In this document: positions 1-20,498 of the stretch, one piece after another
Position numbering within the stretch: the stretch's first letter is position 1
How the letters are laid out: each line of letters opens with the position of its first letter
Origin: a virus
Strand: one strand, 5' to 3'
Virus record (IMG/VR): IMGVR_UViG_3300009034_004109
Span: 1 to 20,498 of that record
DNA: 20,498 nucleotides
The notes under the pieces: model-generated
What the model saw: the letters and a program-made list of their open reading frames with translations, nothing else
What the model was told of the DNA's origin: nothing
Databases searched by the model: none
Position numbers and translations under genes: made by a program

Positions 1-231
1 TTATAAATTATAATAATCATTATATATTTCTTCCATTTCAGATAAATCAATTGATTTATATTTATCTAATAATAGATATAATTCTTTTCTAAAATTTTTC
101 AGTTCTTTTCTATCTGCTTTTTCAATCATTTCATTATATTTTTTATTTATTCTTTGATTTTCAGTTTCTATTCTATTTAATCTTTTTTGATTTTTATATT
201 TTAGATATTTAATAATATCTATTAAAAACAT
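1..231 (-). CDS. Small coiled-coil hypothetical protein (76 aa)
   Basis: Unrecognised small protein. It is rich in Lys, Glu, Asn and Leu, and residues 12-70 look like one long helix or coiled coil with no Cys, signal peptide or membrane segment. The start is supported by an AGAGGT ribosome site inside the end of the upstream glycosyltransferase gene. The start codon shares one base with that gene's stop (TAATG), so the two are probably translationally coupled. Its position at the end of the visible head/neck operon suggests an accessory virion or assembly protein, but nothing in the sequence shows a function. Confidence 0.65.
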   Translation of the reverse strand: MFLIDIIKYLKYKNQKRLNRIETENQRINKKYNEMIEKADRKELKNFRKELYLLLDKYKSIDLSEMEEIYNDYYNL

Positions 232-1994
232 TATATTACCTCTTTTATCAATTTATTAAATCCTTCAATCGTATGTTTAATATCCCATACTTTAGAGCGC
301 TTTTTCGATAAATCACTATAAGCTTTCCTCAAATTTTCATCATACATAACTTTTAAAATCATCTTTTTTAATTCTTCTTTATTTCTAACACATATTCCAG
401 CATTTCCCACAACTTCTTTTACAGCAATTTCATTCAAGTAAATAATAGGTAATCCTGTTGCCATTGCTTCTATTATTGCGTGACTCATAGTTTCCCTAAA
501 AGATCCATTTGCATGAATATAAATACCAAGTTTCTTTAACCAATTTCCTTTAAAATCTGTTATCTTGCATGAATAATCATAAATCATTCTATCATGTTTT
601 AATAGTTGCCGCGATCGCCCCGCCATTTCTATAAACATCATGCATTGCAAATTCTTATCATGATTCAATATTTCCAATACCATTTGATTCCACCATGCCG
701 GTATTTTTCCTGGGCTCCATCTTGTTAGTCTTCCAAATATTTTACAGCTATTATCATATTCTATATTTTCATATGATCTTGTGTCAATTCCACCTGGAAT
801 CATGACAAGATTATTTACATTTTTATTTTGCAACCATCGCATCCACGCATTTGTTAATGCTACATTTTTTAGAAAATTACCGATTGGTATACAATTCATA
901 GAATGTACTATATTTATAGTTTTATTCTTATACGGAAATGATTGTACATATTTATTTGTACTCATAAAATGTTCTATAATATACAAATCAGCTTTAGGTA
1001 TATTATTAAATGTTCTTAAAAAATGATTACCATAGCAATTCTTTATAATTGCCCTTGTAATATCTGCATGTCTATTTATATCATTTGAAAATGATAAATG
1101 TATGATTTTAGGTTCATTTTGTTTTACAATATTTATTCTTTTTTCTTGTATAGAAAATTTTTGTTTAAATGTTTTGAAATCCATCTTTCTAAATTCTGCC
1201 AATGACTCACCTTCTGTTACATGTATTACAGCAGGATACCATTTTTTAAATCGTTCAAAATATTTATATACTTTTTTATATTTCTCAAATTGTAATTTTG
1301 GACGTTGGCCTACGCCTTGATAATTTTCTCTAAAATGAAACAATTTCTGTGTACCATCTTTCCCCATTCCAAATCCTATAAGAAAAATAGGATTTGCACC
1401 TGCTATTATTGCTAAATTTAAAGCAGCCAAACCAGAAAATCTATTTGAAAATAATCCTTTTGTTATATCAGTTGTTGGCCGTGTATTTTGACATTTATAT
1501 CTTATAACATTTTTAAATTTTGATGATATTCCAGTATTATTTTGTGCAAATATTTTACCTTTGAAATCTGGTAAATTATATGTTGTCTTTTTTAAAAAGC
1601 GCCTATCTAAAAATATAAACCATTCAAATCCATCATAACTTTCTATTATATGATTTATCCCTATCGAATGACGACCATTAAAAAAATCAAATCCAATTTG
1701 ATTGATAAATATTTTCAAGTCTGGTCCACTTCCTATTATAAAACATGCTTTTCCAGCCCATCTATTTTTTATCCCCCGGAAGGGGCCTAATGTATATCGT
1801 TTCCCATCTATCCACCCATTATTCATATATATATCCCATGTTTTATTAATATCTCGAGTCGTTATTACATTTTGTTTTGTTTCCATTTTCATTTCTTCTT
1901 TCCATGTAATTTGAATTGTTTCATTTTGTTTTTTAGGTTCAATAGTTGATATATATTCTTTTTTATTTATATTATCTAATGTTATTATACCCAT
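231..1994 (-). CDS. DUF115-like domain fused to GT4-type glycosyltransferase
   Basis: A 587-aa two-domain protein. Residues 81-92 (GKACFIIGSGPD) and the later stretch FSGLAALNLAIIAGANPIFL resemble the Rossmann-like DUF115/MptE-like fold found in carbohydrate-modification proteins. From about residue 295 the protein looks like the C-terminal half of a family 4 (GT-B) glycosyltransferase, with PGGID and an EX7E motif (E501, E509) followed by AMATGLPII, the usual nucleotide-sugar site. It could glycosylate a virion protein or a host surface glycan. The ATG follows directly on the TAG of the Mu gpF-like gene (TAGATG) with only a weak ribosome site. M35 has a better one (GGAAAGAAG), so the true start may be there. 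Fold calls are from motifs only; acceptor and donor are unknown. Confidence 0.75.
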   Translation of the reverse strand: MGIITLDNINKKEYISTIEPKKQNETIQITWKEEMKMETKQNVITTRDINKTWDIYMNNGWIDGKRYTLGPFRGIKNRWAGKACFIIGSGPDLKIFINQIGFDFFNGRHSIGINHIIESYDGFEWFIFLDRRFLKKTTYNLPDFKGKIFAQNNTGISSKFKNVIRYKCQNTRPTTDITKGLFSNRFSGLAALNLAIIAGANPIFLIGFGMGKDGTQKLFHFRENYQGVGQRPKLQFEKYKKVYKYFERFKKWYPAVIHVTEGESLAEFRKMDFKTFKQKFSIQEKRINIVKQNEPKIIHLSFSNDINRHADITRAIIKNCYGNHFLRTFNNIPKADLYIIEHFMSTNKYVQSFPYKNKTINIVHSMNCIPIGNFLKNVALTNAWMRWLQNKNVNNLVMIPGGIDTRSYENIEYDNSCKIFGRLTRWSPGKIPAWWNQMVLEILNHDKNLQCMMFIEMAGRSRQLLKHDRMIYDYSCKITDFKGNWLKKLGIYIHANGSFRETMSHAIIEAMATGLPIIYLNEIAVKEVVGNAGICVRNKEELKKMILKVMYDENLRKAYSDLSKKRSKVWDIKHTIEGFNKLIKEVI

Positions 1995-12889: not shown

Positions 12890-13155
12890 ATATTTATTTT
12901 ATCAAATTCAAGTCTCTGGTCTTCTTCAATTTCTTTAAATTTTAATGAAGATCTTAATCTTCCTGTTATTACAGGTTTTATATTTATATAATCTAATGTC
13001 CCTTTTTGTTTATATACAATCTCTTTAGCAGCCATAATTATCTTTCTTGGTATTGGCGCAGGCGGTATAATAGATAATTGATATTCTCTATACGCTTCTC
13101 TATATAATTTGTCATTTCGCATACACCATTCATGATTTTCTCCAAAGTTATTCAT
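12886..13155 (-). CDS. Hypothetical protein (89 aa)
   Basis: Unrecognised. The N-terminus is rich in Glu, Tyr and Arg (WCMRNDKLYREAYREYQ), then a PPAPIPRK proline segment and a basic C-terminal half. It overlaps the portal stop by 8 bases and has its own AAGGAAAAG site. Directly downstream of the portal gene, it may be a portal-linked accessory protein; no motif supports a precise role. Confidence 0.6.
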   Translation of the reverse strand: MNNFGENHEWCMRNDKLYREAYREYQLSIIPPAPIPRKIIMAAKEIVYKQKGTLDYINIKPVITGRLRSSLKFKEIEEDQRLEFDKINI

Positions 13156-14533
13156 TCTTTTCCTTCATATCTTTATCACTTTCATCTCCATATTCATCTT
13201 TATCAAATTCATTACCAAATTTGTTCATTATATTTTCTGCTGCTTTTTGTTTTTCGGCTTCAATCAATTGTTTTTCAAATAATGGATTTATCCCTGGTAC
13301 TTTATTTCTTACACTATCTTTTGAAATATAATTCATTTCTGCTAATGGTATCCATGTTTCTTGTAATTGCTTTAAAGCCGCATAAGAAATCAAAGGTAAT
13401 CGTATTTCAAATTCTTCATTATCTAAATTTATTGTTTTCCAATTTTCATATCCCAATTTATAACCAATTCTACCGGCTTTTAATACTAATTCCGTAAATG
13501 CTTCTTTCCAAATTTCACGTTCCTGAATTGTTGCTGCATTTATAGTTTCTGCCATATTCTCGGCAGTTGCACGATTACTTAATAATTCAGGCCATGCAAG
13601 CCAGTGAACAGGTATGCCGGTATTGATAGATATTATTCTACATGCTATAATCAATTCTGTTTTTAGTTGATCGCTTGCTCCCGTAGGAGGTCCTATCAAA
13701 GATAAATCAGCAGTCCCAGCATAAGATGTACCAATTTTCCAATTTGCAGCAACTAATAATTTATTCAATGCTGATGCTTCCGCTTTGGTTGCGGTTTTAA
13801 ACCATGCCATTATTTTAGCCCACAAATGATTATTCCATCTCAAATCATATTTTATACGGCTTGCATTTTCAATATCAGTGAGACAATTGCCTATGACTGG
13901 CATTGTATTATTTATTTTATCAGGTGTACCACCAAGTTTTACATATACTAAATTTTTCATTGCTGCGATTGCTTGATCTTTCTTTTCATTTTCAGATTTG
14001 TATGTAACTTGTTTTATAACTTGATTATCATTTTCTTTCATTTCAACATTATAAGGATTTGAAACGCAATAGAAATTTCTTACTTGTATTGTTTCTGTTT
14101 TATTATCTGGCTTTAAGACCATAAGATCTTTACCTTCTAATTCTCCTATTTTAATATTTTCAAATAATTTACTTCCTTCTAATAATTTATTAGCTTTTAA
14201 AAAATTATTTATAGCTTCTGCCACTTTTTCTTTTTTTGCTATTACTGTGATGCCACCACCACAAATAAATGATATTCTTGTACGAACAACATTTCTTAGA
14301 AATTCACCACCATAATCTTTACTATTATTATACATATCATATATGGCTTGAACAGTTGCTTTATAAGTTTTGTAACTATTTCTTTTTAAAGTTGTATCAG
14401 TTACATTTGTACCGGTAATTGTAGTACTTAACAAATCATCTCTACTACCTTCGGTAGATGCTTGTATTTTTTTTAACTTTGCTTGATCTTTCTTTATCCG
14501 CTTTTTTAACTTTTCTATTTGTTTATCATTCAT
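13148..14533 (-). CDS. Portal protein
   Basis: A 461-aa portal protein. Residues 1-25 are a Lys-rich helix. Around residues 80-100 FLRNVVRTRISFICGGG matches the early portal wing region. Residues about 306-345 contain the family hallmark: ISINTGIPVHWLAWPELLS, NRATAENMAE and a following helix, the clip/stem area of many siphophage and myophage portals. The C-terminus is acidic and charged, as usual. The protein forms the ring through which DNA is packaged and released. It lies downstream of terminase but is separated from it by the Ro60/Y-RNA insert. The ATG lacks a ribosome site and overlaps a 36-aa leader ORF by 8 bases. Confidence 0.85.
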   Translation of the reverse strand: MNDKQIEKLKKRIKKDQAKLKKIQASTEGSRDDLLSTTITGTNVTDTTLKRNSYKTYKATVQAIYDMYNNSKDYGGEFLRNVVRTRISFICGGGITVIAKKEKVAEAINNFLKANKLLEGSKLFENIKIGELEGKDLMVLKPDNKTETIQVRNFYCVSNPYNVEMKENDNQVIKQVTYKSENEKKDQAIAAMKNLVYVKLGGTPDKINNTMPVIGNCLTDIENASRIKYDLRWNNHLWAKIMAWFKTATKAEASALNKLLVAANWKIGTSYAGTADLSLIGPPTGASDQLKTELIIACRIISINTGIPVHWLAWPELLSNRATAENMAETINAATIQEREIWKEAFTELVLKAGRIGYKLGYENWKTINLDNEEFEIRLPLISYAALKQLQETWIPLAEMNYISKDSVRNKVPGINPLFEKQLIEAEKQKAAENIMNKFGNEFDKDEYGDESDKDMKEKNE

Positions 14534-15914: not shown

Positions 15915-16727
15915 TCACTCCCTTGTCTTATAAATTAATCCATCCTTATCATAATCCTTAGCAAGTAATACCAGAGAATGTATATTGTGTTTAAAATCTT
16001 GACCGCTCATACAATATCCTGCTTCCAAAACTCGAAATGTCTCACTATCTATCACTGAATTGAATTCTTGCCTCCCTATTCTCCAATCCGCAATTATCCT
16101 ATTACCAGTAATCGAATATTGTATAAGTTCGGCCCCTACCCTACGAAAAGCTAAAATCAATCTTCCATGCATTGTTTTTCTTAGCTTTTCGGCTTCCTGT
16201 TCTGCCTTCAATTCCTCAAGCTGCTGCTTTTCAAGTTCATAGAATAAACAAAGTGTTCTTAATTCAGGAGTAAGGCCTTTTAATCCCTTAATATCTCCAT
16301 CTGATTCTATTATATTTTTTACTGTATAGATGAATGAATCCCGGTAATTAGGTTGATAATAATAAAGTTTTCCATCTTCCCAAATTACCGCTATGATAGA
16401 TGAAAAAGAAGGACACATGTTTAAATAAATATCCGTCATTATTTCTCTGCCTGTCCTTCTTTTTCCCACATCAAAATTCTGAAAAATAAATTGTTCATTA
16501 AACACGTATCCTCTTATTGTATTTAATTTTTCTTTATAATCAATCATAACTGTTTGGCTTATTTTCCTACAATCATTTCCTTTTATTTCTACTTCATACC
16601 ATCCAGATTCAGAAAAAGATATATTATATTTTTTCCCTTTGTATTTAAAAGTACCACTTATAATAGGTACAATCGTATTTATAACATTTGCATATTTTTC
16701 TAAATTTATCAAACCGCTTCCCACCAT
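15915..16727 (-). CDS. Unknown protein coupled to Ro60 (270 aa)
   Basis: Not recognised. The N-terminal part is beta-rich (INTIVPIISGTFKYKGKKYN, then GWYEVEIKG). The middle has CPSFSSIIAVIWEDGKLYYY. Residues about 164-190 form a Glu/Lys coiled coil (LEKQQLEELKAEQEAEKLRK). The C-terminal segment (IADWRIGRQEFNSVIDSETF, then EAGYCMSGQDFKHNIHSL) looks conserved. The start lies inside the last codons of the Ro60 gene (19-base overlap) without a clear ribosome site, so the two proteins are probably made together. That makes this a candidate partner of the phage Ro60 particle, for example an RNA-handling or regulatory subunit. M1 could also be replaced by a later start. Confidence 0.6.
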   Translation of the reverse strand: MVGSGLINLEKYANVINTIVPIISGTFKYKGKKYNISFSESGWYEVEIKGNDCRKISQTVMIDYKEKLNTIRGYVFNEQFIFQNFDVGKRRTGREIMTDIYLNMCPSFSSIIAVIWEDGKLYYYQPNYRDSFIYTVKNIIESDGDIKGLKGLTPELRTLCLFYELEKQQLEELKAEQEAEKLRKTMHGRLILAFRRVGAELIQYSITGNRIIADWRIGRQEFNSVIDSETFRVLEAGYCMSGQDFKHNIHSLVLLAKDYDKDGLIYKTRE

Positions 16728-18277
16728 TCAGGTAATTTTAACAATGGTGTCTGCATAATCTCATCAATAATTGCAATTGCTCCTATTGCTGCTGTTTTAA
16801 TTGTCTGTACCACCAATGCTGATTCTATTAATGTCTCAGGTTTTATAATTGAAACTGGTATATCATTACGTGTAAATGCTTTAAATAAATCTCCATATTT
16901 CCCATTACCAAAATCAATAATTATAACAACTTTAGATTTTCCATATTCAATTATATATTTATTGATATTACCTCTATTATGTTCTTGATCCGTCACGTAT
17001 ATATCAACATCACAATTTAATTCCCGGGCTTTTTGATAACATGCTAAACAATCAGTCCATCCATCTGCTTTTATGCCGTAAAGTTTTTGCATAAAAGCAC
17101 CTTGTGTAAATGTATCCGGTTTTTCAAGTAAATATCCATTCTGATTAAAACATCCCCAATGAAAATTTTCTTTAGGATTTTTTACACATTCTGCAATTAT
17201 AGCGCCTTTCTCTTTTGCAAATTCTATCGCAGGTTGCATGGAAGAAGAAATATCTATATGGAGAAATATTTTACCTATTTCCCCAAACTCTTCTTTTCTT
17301 TTTTTAGATTTTGCTTTCTTTAATGCTTTTTCAACTTTTTCACTTGTTACTGTATTCATTCTCTCAACCCGGTTAAGCGCATCTTTGGCTATATTAAGCT
17401 TTTGCTCAAACAATTCTATAATTTCATTATGTCTCAACAATCCCTGTCTTTCAAATAAAGATTTTAAAATCACTGTTTGATTTCCTGTTGCTTGTTCAAG
17501 AATTGCCACAGCTATCACAGGAGATATCTTTTCAGGTAATGCACCCACGGCAACCATAGAATTTATCTTTTCTTTTCTGATCTTTTTTGCTATATCAATG
17601 TCTTTCATTCCCTTGAAAGACAAAGCCTGTTCTTTTTTGATTTCCCTACCGTCTTTCTGTTCCCATCTTAAAATCCCTGCCACTTCCATTGATGGTGCTA
17701 TTCTTGCCATTCTGTATAGATTCATCAATATTTTACGTAATCCTGCTTTCTTAATTCCTTTTACAATATATAAATTATTTTCTCGATATCTTAAATATTT
17801 TATTAAAGCTTTCTTTAAAGACTTAGGGAAGTGTGTACCTTCTCTATATTTATTACTATAAGCTATTTTAAGATTAGCTAATTGTATCACTCTTAATGCA
17901 AGTTTAGGTTCAAGCATTTGAAATCCTGCTTGTGTTATCATGCGTAAATTAGGTTTATTATATTCAGATTTTATTACTTTCCCTTCTTTGTTCGTTTCAA
18001 TGAATGGTGTGCCATCTGCATCCGATAAAGCATTTGCAAATACCGATACAACTTTCAAGTCTTTGCTGTCAAGTTTAGTAACTGCATAACTTGTAAAGTG
18101 AACAAGGAAATATGGATCTTTTTCAGCAAGATTTATAAATGTAGATATAATCGATTTGTATTTATCTAATTGCAATTTTCCTTTTGACCATAAATGTATA
18201 CATCCACTTGTAATTATTTCATATGCTTTAAATCTGTCATTATCATCCATGTAGGATAATTGAAATTCATTCATCAT
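16709..18277 (-). CDS. rsr: Ro60/Rsr homologue (TROVE + vWA domains)
   Basis: A 522-aa protein, close to the usual 520-540 aa of Ro60. Residues 1 to about 335 are the helical-repeat TROVE ring: DRFKAYEIITSGCIHLWSKG at the start, then LAEKDPYFLVHFTSYAV and the basic KSLKKALIKYLRYREN. Residues about 336-522 are a von Willebrand A domain. It has a complete metal site: DISSSM (D342, S344, S346), T408 in GWTD and D430 in VTDQEHN. Ro60 binds Y RNAs on its outer surface and misfolded RNA ends in its central hole. Bacterial Rsr works with exoribonucleases such as PNPase. Here the gene lies directly downstream of Y-RNA-like elements. A tandem ATGATG start follows an AAGGAAG site. Confidence 0.93.
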   Translation of the reverse strand: MMNEFQLSYMDDNDRFKAYEIITSGCIHLWSKGKLQLDKYKSIISTFINLAEKDPYFLVHFTSYAVTKLDSKDLKVVSVFANALSDADGTPFIETNKEGKVIKSEYNKPNLRMITQAGFQMLEPKLALRVIQLANLKIAYSNKYREGTHFPKSLKKALIKYLRYRENNLYIVKGIKKAGLRKILMNLYRMARIAPSMEVAGILRWEQKDGREIKKEQALSFKGMKDIDIAKKIRKEKINSMVAVGALPEKISPVIAVAILEQATGNQTVILKSLFERQGLLRHNEIIELFEQKLNIAKDALNRVERMNTVTSEKVEKALKKAKSKKRKEEFGEIGKIFLHIDISSSMQPAIEFAKEKGAIIAECVKNPKENFHWGCFNQNGYLLEKPDTFTQGAFMQKLYGIKADGWTDCLACYQKARELNCDVDIYVTDQEHNRGNINKYIIEYGKSKVVIIIDFGNGKYGDLFKAFTRNDIPVSIIKPETLIESALVVQTIKTAAIGAIAIIDEIMQTPLLKLPEWWEAV

Positions 18278-18305: not shown

Positions 18306-18385
18306 AGCGGTTCAAGTTAAATAAGCATATCATGCTAAATTGATTTACAGTCAATATGCTTGTAAGCCTATTCTGTGGAACCGCT
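18306..18385 (-). ncRNA. Y-RNA-like element A, upstream of Ro60
   Basis: Minus-strand RNA with an 8-bp closing stem AGCGGUUC/GAACCGCU, a bulged C, then AAUAGGC/GCUUAUU with one G-U pair. It carries the shared signatures UUCCA, UUACAAGC and ACUUGAA, matching the form of Ro60 sites in Y RNAs. The loop holds AUUGA-CUGUAAA-UCAAU (18339-18355), whose loop is identical in type to a tRNA-Tyr(GUA) anticodon loop, and a second small AGCAU-GAU-AUGCU hairpin. The stem is followed by UAUUUUAUUAU, so it may also cause partial termination. It ends about 30 bases before the Ro60 start and could bind Ro60 as an autoregulatory element. Confidence 0.75.
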
Positions 18386-18665: not shown

Positions 18666-18687
18666 ATTATTCTCCTTTTCTATAAAT

Positions 18688-18790
18688 AAATAAGTTCAAG
18701 TGAATTTGATTGTTTTACTTATGATAGACTGTCTTACGCCCTACAGTCTGGAGGGTTATGCTTGTAAATCAAATCCGTTGGAACTTATCT
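18688..18790 (-). ncRNA. Y-RNA-like element B
   Basis: Closing stem AGAUAAGUUC/GAACUUAUUU (10 pairs, one G-U), bulged C, internal loop, then an AUUUGAUU/AAUCAAAU helix of 8 pairs. It has the shared UUCCA, UUACAAGC and ACUUGAA boxes. The loop carries one strong hairpin, AGACUGU, a 10-base loop and ACAGUCU (7 pairs). Its 5' end lies one base past the tRNA-Arg discriminator, so 3' processing of the tRNA would also free this RNA. Confidence 0.78.
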
Positions 18791-18791
18791 A

Positions 18792-18928
18792 CGGGGCGAG
18801 AAGGATTCGAACCTCCACATAAGCTTGTAAAATAATTTAGTGGAACTATTATATAATAGTTCAAGTTAAATTATTTTCTGCAAAATACAGTTCCGTATAC
18901 TGCTACCCTTCCATTGGGTAATCGCCCC
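18792..18928 (-). tRNA. tRNA-Arg(ACG) with a Y-RNA stem in its variable region
   Basis: On the minus strand all parts of a class I tRNA are present. Acceptor is GGGGCGA/UCGCCCC (7 perfect pairs, discriminator G). D arm is ACCC-AAUGGAA-GGGU. Anticodon arm is GCAGU-AUACGGA-ACUGU with anticodon ACG. T arm is GGAGG-UUCGAAU-CCUUC. Instead of about 5 bases, the variable region is 70 bases (18817-18886). It holds a long hairpin with the Ro60-site boxes in permuted order: ACUUGAA first, UUCCA second, then UUACAAGC. No CCA is encoded. It could be a charged tRNA tethered to Ro60, or a Y RNA built on a tRNA. An intron is unlikely, as the insert is not in the anticodon loop. Confidence 0.88.
18829..18877 (-). 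ncRNA. Permuted Ro60-binding stem (element C) inside tRNA-Arg
   Basis: Minus-strand hairpin: AAAAUAAUUUA pairs with UAAAUUAUUUU (11 pairs), then an asymmetric ACUU/CAC internal loop, then the palindrome whose DNA is GAACTATTATATAATAGTTC. The boxes and spacing match elements A, B, D and E. Here the end that is open in the other four is closed by a short loop, and the usual loop position is occupied by the tRNA. Confidence 0.8.
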
Positions 18929-18938
18929 AATATATATA

Positions 18939-19030
18939 AACCAGGTTCAAGTTATAGTAAGCGTTTCAGTTACGCCCAATCATCATGTGAATGGGAATTT
19001 GCTTGTAAGCTTACCTAATGGAACCCGGTT
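18939..19030 (-). ncRNA. Y-RNA-like element D
   Basis: Closing stem AACCGGGUUC/GAACCUGGUU (10 pairs, one G-U), bulged C, then GUAAGC/GCUUAC. UUCCA, UUACAAGC and ACUUGAA boxes are present. The loop has two arms: CCCA-U-UCA-CAUGA-UGA-U-UGGG, and GCGU-AACUGAA-ACGC with a 7-base loop like a T arm. Two arms within a Y stem recall the tRNA-like module of bacterial YrlA RNAs. It lies between tRNA-Arg and element E. Confidence 0.78.
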
Positions 19031-19043
19031 AATTTACAATATA

Positions 19044-19173
19044 GAGTGATTCAAGTTTATAAGACACATCATTTGCTGCAAAGACGGGTTTGAACCATCG
19101 ACCTATAGTTTATGAAACTATTGCTCTAACCACTGAGCTAATCTGCATGTAAGTCTCATAGTTGGAATCACTC
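19044..19173 (-). ncRNA. Y-RNA-like element E enclosing a tRNA
   Basis: Closing stem GAGUGAUUC/GAAUCACUC (9 perfect pairs), bulged C, A-A paired with U-U, a small internal loop, then AUGAGAC/GUCUUAU (7 pairs, one G-U). It has UUCCA, UUACAUGC (one change from the other copies) and ACUUGAA boxes. The loop is a nearly complete tRNA with anticodon CAU. It is the first element after the promoter. Confidence 0.8.
19076..19148 (-). tRNA. tRNA with CAU anticodon nested in Y-RNA element E
   Basis: Minus strand: D arm GCUC-AGUGGUUA-GAGC, anticodon arm AUAGU-UUCAUAA-ACUAU (anticodon CAU), variable AGGUC and T arm GAUGG-UUCAAAC-CCGUC are all canonical. The acceptor is odd. UGCAGA/UUUGCA gives six pairs, the 1-72 pair would be A against G, and three bases (UUA) rather than two link the acceptor to the D arm. 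CCA is not encoded. It could be tRNA-Met, a tRNA-Ile read through lysidine modification, or a non-charged tRNA mimic used by Ro60. It lacks the three G-C pairs of an initiator anticodon stem. Confidence 0.72.
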
Positions 19174-19188
19174 ATTATTCTACTCCTC

Positions 19189-19243
19189 GCTCGGAAAGTA
19201 TAGGTTGAGAAATAGAATTGTTTCAATATTAGGCTTTCCGAGC
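19189..19243 (-). ncRNA. 5' hairpin of the RNA-array transcript
   Basis: GCUCGGAAAG and CUUUCCGAGC form ten perfect pairs around a 35-base loop that contains AUUG-AAA-CAAU. It starts about five bases after the predicted transcription start. It lacks the Y boxes. It may protect the 5' end or be a processing signal. Confidence 0.6.
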
Positions 19244-19254
19244 TTCATGTACAT

Positions 19255-19328: not shown

Positions 19329-20498
19329 TTATTTTAAGATAAAATGACCACCTGTATTTATATTATTGTCCATGAGCCACCCATGAATGGCATAACGTGA
19401 AGCATCACTATTTTTAACAAGTATATTATTTGCAAAGTATTCATGAGCATTCTCAACAGAAATACTATATACTTTTTTCATTCCTTTGTATTTCATATTG
19501 TCACATGTAGTATATCCATGTATTCCATTTATGATAATATAAAATTGATCATACATTTGAAATGTATTAATTTCTTTATATTTATTTTCATTTATACAAT
19601 AAAATTTATGATTATTTGTACAAATTATTTTATTTGTACCAATTTCATATTCAAATACATCTTTTATTCCTGTCATATATTTATTATAAACTCTTTTATA
19701 TCCCTGTCTAGTTAAAACCATATCTCCTATTTTTATATTTTTTATCTTAACCTGTCCCTTATCAGTCAATATCAATGTATCACCAGCTAAACATTCGTGA
19801 TCATTCTCTTTTACATGGTTCCCATACAGAAAACCTTGACCGCTTGGATCTTCTTGATTAGTAAGATTTACCATACTCTGGAATGTATGTTTACATTTTA
19901 CGTCAAAAAACAATTCACAACTATTCACACTCGAATCTCCGGCCCCAATTTCTTTGTATGCAGGTTTTGCTGCATATCCTGCATTTTCAAGTACTTTTAT
20001 TCTGTCCGGTTCGTGATCACAATAGCAAATATGATTCTCTTGTTTTATTCCATATATTTTGTCAAGTATTTTTACCAGATCTTCTGTTATTCCATCTAAT
20101 ATTATAATTTCATGAATACAATATGCTTGCACAATTTTTTTTGTTCTCTTAAATCCCCATACAATCGCACACATATAATAACCCCAGTCTATCCCTACTG
20201 CAATATCATCATAGAAATGATATATATTTTTTTCACATTCTATTTTATTTTTTTCTTTGACATTTTTATAGACTGCCCCTGGAAGATATGTCCATTCACC
20301 CTTAAAAAATCTTGCCTGTTTATCTTTTGGTAATTTCATTAATATATTTTCAATATATCCAGGTGGTAAATTTTCTTTATTATCATCCGGTAAGAACTTT
20401 AATACTCCTCTACTTTCAATTTTATCTATATAGAATTCTTTAAATAAATAATGATAAGGTTGTCGTGGATTACAATCATAAATTATAAAATTAGAAAA
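19329..20498 (-). CDS. Terminase large subunit, C-terminal part, with intein
   Basis: The frame runs off the right edge, so the N-terminal ATPase half is outside; the ATG at 20337-20339 is internal. What is seen is the motor-nuclease linker (CNPRQPYHYLFKEF, then LPKDKQARFFKGEW). The RuvC-like nuclease follows: VGIDWG with the first Asp, DHEPDR as second acidic motif, and after splicing NDHE-SDASRYAIHGW with the third. The enzyme cuts concatemeric phage DNA and pumps it through the portal. An intein interrupts the last motif, so splicing is required for nuclease activity. The short C-terminus ends in GGHFILK. The pattern fits a PBSX/T4-like terminase. Confidence 0.88.
   Translation of the reverse strand, partial: FSNFIIYDCNPRQPYHYLFKEFYIDKIESRGVLKFLPDDNKENLPPGYIENILMKLPKDKQARFFKGEWTYLPGAVYKNVKEKNKIECEKNIYHFYDDIAVGIDWGYYMCAIVWGFKRTKKIVQAYCIHEIIILDGITEDLVKILDKIYGIKQENHICYCDHEPDRIKVLENAGYAAKPAYKEIGAGDSSVNSCELFFDVKCKHTFQSMVNLTNQEDPSGQGFLYGNHVKENDHECLAGDTLILTDKGQVKIKNIKIGDMVLTRQGYKRVYNKYMTGIKDVFEYEIGTNKIICTNNHKFYCINENKYKEINTFQMYDQFYIIINGIHGYTTCDNMKYKGMKKVYSISVENAHEYFANNILVKNSDASRYAIHGWLMDNNINTGGHFILK
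19410..19793 (-). other. Mini-intein in the terminase nuclease motif (128 aa)
   Basis: The segment begins CLAGDTLILTDKG (block A, Cys1), has CTNNH (block B, TxxH) at about residues 58-62, and ends VYSISVENAHEYFANNILVK-N (blocks F and G). Ser is the first extein residue (SDASRYA). Removing it restores the terminase motif. There is no homing-endonuclease domain. The penultimate residue is Lys instead of the usual His, a deviation seen in some inteins that still splice. Confidence 0.88.

Follow-up and report, generated by a model that had tools for sequence, protein, structure and literature searches.

A tRNA nested within a Y RNA-like element

We analyzed a 20,498-base viral fragment from IMG/VR (IMGVR_UViG_3300009034_004109; hereafter the window), which carries head and packaging genes. 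Five Y RNA-like elements, A to E, lie on its minus strand between an open reading frame (ORF) at 19329-20339 and a 522-aa ORF at 16709-18277. The subject of this work is element E, in which a tRNA cloverleaf with the anticodon CAU sits inside a Y RNA-type stem. A preliminary description of the sequence had proposed a Ro60-type outer stem around this tRNA, and the predicted fold, ARAGORN, Rfam and a covariance model built from relatives only agree with it. The parts of E are as follows.

19173-19044, minus strand: whole element E, a tRNA-in-Y RNA
19165-19173, minus strand: outer Y stem, 5' arm GAGUGAUUC, 9 bp with 19044-19052 (fold and family outer stems)
19161-19164, minus strand: internal loop, 5' side, CAAC (scan and fold)
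19153-19160, minus strand: inner Y stem, 5' arm UAUGAGAC, 8 bp with 19058-19065 (scan and fold)
19145-19152, minus strand: joiner UUACAUGC, overlapping the tRNA 5' end (family alignments)
19075-19148, minus strand: nested tRNA cloverleaf, anticodon CAU at 19114-19112 (ARAGORN and Rfam)
19058-19065, minus strand: inner Y stem, 3' arm GUCUUAUA (scan and fold)
19053-19057, minus strand: internal loop, 3' side, AACUU (scan; AACU[UC]G in the family)
19044-19052, minus strand: outer Y stem, 3' arm GAAUCACUC (scan, fold and family pairing)

Read from 5' to 3', E thus runs GAGUGAUUC-CAAC-UAUGAGAC-UUACAUGC-tRNA-GUCUUAUA-AACUU-GAAUCACUC. Its minimum free energy fold (z = -3.2 relative to dinucleotide shuffles) consists of an outer 9-bp stem, an internal loop (CAAC/AACUU), an inner 8-bp stem with one G-U pair, and the cloverleaf. 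The stem had been described as 9 + 7 pairs; the nine outer pairs were found as stated, and the inner stem has eight pairs instead of seven. The flanking helices reach 16.3, a value matched by 1 of 3,000 flank shuffles. With its terminal stem, internal loop, inner stem and adjoining Ro60-like gene, E has the layout of a Y RNA.

The interior is likewise recognized as a tRNA. ARAGORN called a single tRNA in the window, at 19148-19075 on the minus strand (anticodon CAU), and the Rfam tRNA model RF00005 scored E at 55.6 bits (E-value 9e-10; gathering cut-off 29). The near-canonical arms that had been read from the sequence are borne out by these calls and by D and T arms close to those of ordinary phage tRNAs; the tRNA of E is identical to the tRNA-Met of YerA41 at 52 of 74 positions. 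It is the acceptor that deviates, in the way anticipated: an A1-G72 mismatch, six pairs from U2-A71 to A7-U66 (one of them G-U) and a three-base linker, UUA. CCA is not encoded.

These features bear on a simple precursor reading, in which the Y stem would clamp a precursor, the tRNA would be freed by RNase P together with a 3' processing enzyme, and CCA would be added. The released tRNA would decode AUG or, as tRNA-Ile2, AUA, and the Y stem would merely protect it or delay its maturation. Acceptance of E as a tRNA by both programs and the resemblance of its D and T arms to ordinary phage tRNAs favor such a precursor, and the missing CCA, the A1-G72 mismatch and the linker count against it.

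Element E belongs to a covarying RNA family

Relatives were sought with a motif scan for two helices, a UACA joiner and a CU[UC] loop, which was devised after the first examples had been seen. In 866 kb, the window included, 29 elements carried the loop motif (2 in the shuffle), and 15 further loci again yielded many elements (1 in the shuffle). In four phage tRNA arrays, taken from records in which no Ro60-like gene is known, no element had the loop motif.

A covariance model trained on relatives only (R1) and a pairing test of the outer stem served as independent checks. R1 was built from 16 aligned tRNA-in-Y relatives, with E left out and no outer-stem pairs modeled; two-sided changes occur at 19 of the 22 predicted pairs of that alignment. 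In the window, E was the sole match (69.9 bits, E-value 8.5e-19). Over 1.14 Mb, R1 recovered E, 30 others at 72-112 bits and one YrlA-like element at 69, with ordinary tRNAs reaching at most 60.7 bits there and 57.4 bits in control arrays; the best lower match in the whole-record search scored 61.8 bits. Of the 28 phage records with a Ro60-like gene, 23 had a match of at least 67 bits, compared with 0 of the 4 phages that served as controls. About half of the matching records had contributed to R1; 12 had not, nor had the window.

Because R1 contains no pairs in the outer stem, this stem provides a clean test. All 31 family members pair at 8/8 or 7/8 positions, and the 15 elements outside the training set do so at 8/8 in 13 cases and at 7/8 in two. 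When the partners were swapped between phages, the mean was 5.6 pairs and 8/8 was reached in 5%. The outer stems remain paired though their sequences differ among relatives, that is, by compensating changes. Further, the family shares a joiner with the consensus [UC]ACA[AC]GCA, which includes the acceptor 5' end and is kept regardless of anticodon, and a 3' internal loop AACU[UC]G, at the place where the Rfam consensus of YrlA reads AcUuG.

A tRNA gene could also have come to lie fortuitously between complementary stretches. Apart from AT-rich sequence, which eases short helices, nothing speaks for such a coincidence; the flank shuffles, the E-value of E under R1 and the compensating changes speak against it, and recurrence refutes it, so that we assign it next to no probability.

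The subfamily of the Ro60-like gene extends to myxobacterial contigs, namely the isolate Paraliomyxa miuraensis and metagenome-assembled genomes of Polyangia, Sorangium and Kofleriaceae. R1 matches in these contigs score 68-88 bits, and one Polyangia contig has three; in the Paraliomyxa isolate (strain SMH-27-4, locus L097) the match lies at 13125-13243. Prophages or wrongly binned phage sequences may account for some of these contigs; the scaffold from Paraliomyxa measures 799 kb. We conclude that element E is real and a member of a covarying RNA family, and that tRNA-in-Y fusions constitute a genuine RNA class, which occurs near Ro60-like genes in many giant phages and some myxobacteria.

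The adjoining gene encodes a predicted divergent Ro60

The gene next to the RNA elements reads as follows.

16709-18277, minus strand: divergent Ro60-like protein, 522 aa, with helical repeats and a vWA domain, MIDAS DISSSM (Foldseek, VIA and profile)

Pfam TROVE (PF05731) does not match this ORF, and Pfam, NCBIfam, PHROGs and a single-sequence PDB search gave it no name. Its AlphaFold2 model, based on a 16-sequence alignment, has a mean predicted local distance difference test score of 71.5. With this model, the top 12 Foldseek matches in the PDB were all Ro60/TROVE chains (E-values 6e-9 to 5e-6), including the Ro60 of Thermus phage phiLo (PDB 9l5y). VIA aligned 386 residues on 9kop (Z 14.6) and 315 on 1yvp; the VIA matches listed were mostly vWA domains, and among them only TROVE/Ro60 chains span most of the model. 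Moreover, the profile of the window family matched the canonical Rsr of Paraliomyxa in hhalign (94.6%, E-value 6.8e-8, 373 columns), a protein that Pfam assigns to vWA_Ro60 (2e-19) and TROVE (7e-8) and that is encoded just before YrlA. On the strength of the Foldseek, VIA and profile matches, which combine a predicted Ro60 fold over most of the length with homology to a canonical Rsr, the 522-aa ORF is predicted to be a divergent Ro60 (TROVE-vWA).

The 522-aa sequence alone as a query returned no viral relatives. By tblastn, the protein led to phage Rctr197k and a 595-kb phage, in both of which the gene adjoins tRNA genes, and a search with a three-sequence alignment found 18 IMG/VR loci with a Ro60-like gene, many inside tRNA arrays. 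The exact DNA pattern of the window Y motif had no match in IMG/VR. We also observed phage-encoded transfer-messenger RNA genes within tRNA arrays of Ro60-carrying phages (L014, 11865-12243; L048, 12390-12745).

Y stems and tRNAs are joined in several ways

Element C shows the opposite arrangement to E, a Y hairpin inside a tRNA. Both topologies, as set out in the preliminary description, are confirmed by the fold of E and by ARAGORN on C without its hairpin.

18793-18928, minus strand: C, cloverleaf resembling tRNA-Arg(ACG), its variable loop holding a Y hairpin (Rfam and ARAGORN)
18823-18877, minus strand: Y hairpin of C, in inverted order (scan)

The Rfam tRNA model scored C at 27.7 bits (18927-18794, with a 90-nt insert), and after removal of the hairpin ARAGORN called a tRNA-Arg(ACG). 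The acceptor of C is intact (7 bp, GGGGCGA/UCGCCCC), and its hairpin runs in the order inner 3' arm, ACUU, loop-closed outer stem, outer 5' arm, inner 5' arm, ACAAGC. Four tRNAs with such an inverted hairpin were found: C itself, G001 140690-140835, L067 near 8085, and W01 288600-288830. The last has the hairpin in its D-loop, gave no ARAGORN tRNA after hairpin removal and was assigned by eye.

Ten further elements look permuted, with the T-arm and the acceptor 3' strand preceding the acceptor 5' strand, D and anticodon arm. After rotation, ARAGORN recognized a tRNA in 8 of the 10, compared with 0 of 200 shuffled interiors; the remaining two (G002 367494 and L065 16790) gave no ARAGORN tRNA and were read by eye. 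CCA is encoded by three permuted elements, L069 (9069), G007 (126327) and G011 (92477). In L069 9069-9209, L013 10912-11065 and L020 10920-11060, the permuted tRNA lies in a Y stem with CCA after the acceptor 3' strand and short linkers. The acceptor is closed by CUUCGG in two permuted relatives, G001 140209 and L070 6170, and a Y RNA with a permuted complete tRNA and a CUUCGG-sealed acceptor was seen at L004 11051-11183 and L070 6170-6309. An acceptor sealed in this way cannot therefore be charged without cutting. In some permuted and C-type tRNAs, four-base anticodon calls correspond to 8-base loops (L063 14330, G010 66097 and L067 8085 are listed for anticodon oddities). We considered whether all permuted modules are YrlA and rejected this: RF02553 matched one permuted element in part and below cut-off (G002 367526-367595, 26 bits), and the modules keep an anticodon arm.

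Where the Y stem joins the variable loop, permuted and C-type RNAs are circular permutations of one another; E adds a third wiring. From C and E together, the joining of tRNA and Ro60 site had been argued to be selected and not accidental, and this view is supported by the adjoining Ro60-like gene, the distribution of R1 matches over phage and control records, the compensating outer stems and the recurrence of C-type and permuted forms.

The nested tRNAs are probably mimics

A full acceptor with 7/7 pairs was present in 2 of 31 nested tRNAs versus 283 of 314 free tRNAs of the same loci (P = 3e-23), and GC(A) is common to the weak acceptors of the family irrespective of anticodon. Anticodons with A34 were strongly overrepresented, in 11/31 nested versus 15/314 free tRNAs (P = 1.6e-6); those observed are AUC, AAC, AUU, AUG, AAU and ACU. 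In phage G001, free tRNAs exist with the same Ile(GAU) and CAU anticodons that its nested or permuted fusions carry, so that these fusions are duplicates. Weak acceptors, excess of A34, the shared joiner and the G001 duplicates all fit a mimic. Leu and Ser anticodons without a long variable arm were rejected as a sign of mimicry, as 10 of 42 free Leu/Ser tRNAs are also short.

Judged from sequence, the nested tRNAs are probably tRNA mimics rather than working tRNAs for most of the class. Several observations weigh against this. E itself is a mild case, with a fairly good acceptor (6 of 7 pairs) and an ordinary CAU anticodon; two nested tRNAs have the full 7-bp acceptor; and in several relatives the tRNA 3' end has an encoded CCA or ACCA, as in functional tRNAs (W01 Thr, L064 Arg, L032 Asp). 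The encoded CCA is also a point in favor of the precursor. Weak acceptors and odd anticodons nonetheless speak against a plain precursor where the class is concerned, with less force for E by itself, and we consider it an unlikely explanation of E.

We therefore favor, with reasonable though not high confidence, that E is the Y RNA of the phage's own divergent Ro60 and that its tRNA part is a permanently attached mimic. Ro60, an RNA-quality-control protein, would grip the outer and inner stems with the AACUU internal loop between them, and the far end, a near-complete tRNA cloverleaf in natural order, would remain fused in the mature RNA. The mimic could then bring host or phage tRNA-binding factors to the Ro60 ring, or occupy them, on the model of YrlA bringing PNPase to Rsr. 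Candidate factors are an exoribonuclease, tRNA modification or repair enzymes, and tRNA-cleaving defense nucleases.

The last of these candidates leads to a related explanation, in which the anticodon loop is a bait for host defense nucleases that cleave tRNAs. The Ro60 ring would retain or degrade the cut RNA, and the real tRNAs of the infected cell would be spared. The anticodon arm is kept in the family and absent from the Rfam YrlA model, YrlA has been suggested as a competitor against an anticodon nuclease (PMC7790460), and phage tRNAs are reported to counter tRNA-targeting defenses (PMC10264068, PMC11555353). The elements also lie beside the same gene in myxobacterial contigs, however, where phage counter-defense is not obvious. 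As the explanation of E, bait appears improbable to us, more so than the precursor; it is compatible with a permanently attached mimic and not exclusive of it.

A broader reading, which we put forward tentatively and with slightly more doubt than belief, would make Ro60-associated tRNA chimeras a broad class of giant phages and myxobacteria that stay fused in the mature RNA, with Ro60 carrying the tRNA body and YrlA as a reduced descendant. Its wirings would be the stem joined to the acceptor end of a complete tRNA, as in E; a permuted tRNA whose variable loop carries the stem; and a tRNA with a Y hairpin set into its variable or D loop, as in C.

The family bears on the question of why bacterial Y RNAs mimic tRNAs, with a mimic that is still a recognizable tRNA with an anticodon. 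Through its several joining topologies and a named isolate, Paraliomyxa miuraensis, it becomes testable where the mimic originated and what partners its tRNA end, and phage tRNA arrays gain a possible second role beyond decoding. Standard annotation labels such RNAs as plain tRNAs or overlooks them.

Further features of the window

The three other Y-like elements of the window are:

18939-19030, minus strand: D, sister Y-like RNA, GUUCCA..UUACAAGC / AACUUGAAC, whose short interior is not a tRNA (repeats and scan)
18686-18792, minus strand: B, sister Y-like RNA (repeats and scan)
18306-18385, minus strand: A, sister Y-like RNA immediately upstream of the Ro60-like gene (repeats and scan)

A repeat search showed that the Y-like elements of the window have arms in common, GUUCCA..UUACAAGC and, on the opposite side, AACUUGAAC. 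A, B and D are without a tRNA, and the interiors of B and D share GGGCGUAA. Just upstream of E, a 10-bp inverted repeat (GCUCGGAAAG/CUUUCCGAGC) with a long loop lies at 19180-19250 and is perhaps a sixth structured element. Scans of the element region for sigma-70 promoters and terminators gave chance level only. The ORF at 19329-20339 (minus strand), which adjoins the RNA cluster, has N- and C-terminal intein (HINT) signals and a weak terminase match, and 231-1994 (minus strand) encodes a large glycosyltransferase whose N-terminal part resembles a sialyltransferase (PHROG 4603).

Comparison with known systems

Vertebrate Y RNAs resemble E in their long terminal stem with a conserved internal loop, and hY3 also has CUUGA in its 3' arm; their loop, in contrast, holds no tRNA. 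Rfam gave no Y RNA match for E. Permuted tRNA genes exist in algae and archaea. Like them, L069 9069, G007 126327, G011 92477 and other relatives place the T-arm and acceptor 3' strand first, some with CCA; unlike them, the outer ends of these relatives form a Ro60-type stem, and E itself is unpermuted.

Jumbo phages carry TROVE proteins (PMC7824862, PMC7765460). The window protein is predicted to share the TROVE and vWA fold of these and of the phiLo Ro60 (9l5y), whereas its family goes unrecognized by Pfam TROVE.

The closest known system is YrlA (RF02553). A review (PMC8394870, citing Chen 2013, Chen 2014 and Wang 2018) describes YrlA as a bacterial Y RNA that contains a tRNA-like domain, tethers Rsr to PNPase and undergoes modification by tRNA enzymes. 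RF02553 had no match in the window at E-values up to 10 and none above cut-off in seven related records. In the Paraliomyxa genome, a canonical Rsr gene is followed by YrlA (L101, 7084-9067). Chen 2014 is reported to describe more than 250 species of bacteria and phages in which a Y RNA with a tRNA-like domain lies near Ro60, and some of the present loci may already be listed there. Our literature search, which did not extend to the primary YrlA papers, found no description of natural-order complete tRNAs or complete permuted tRNAs joined to a Y RNA, or of Y hairpins inside tRNAs.

E and YrlA have in common a Ro60-type stem with an internal loop, AcUuG in the 3' loop, a tRNA-like module at the other end and an adjoining Ro60 gene. 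In the Rfam model and the Paraliomyxa example, YrlA differs by its permuted order of T-arm, acceptor hairpin and D-arm, without an anticodon arm and with the Y stem in its place, whereas E keeps the natural order of D, anticodon, variable and T arms, its Y stem lying past the acceptor. YrlA is already an example of a Y RNA with a tRNA-like module, and what is new is a variant with a natural-order cloverleaf and an anticodon arm.
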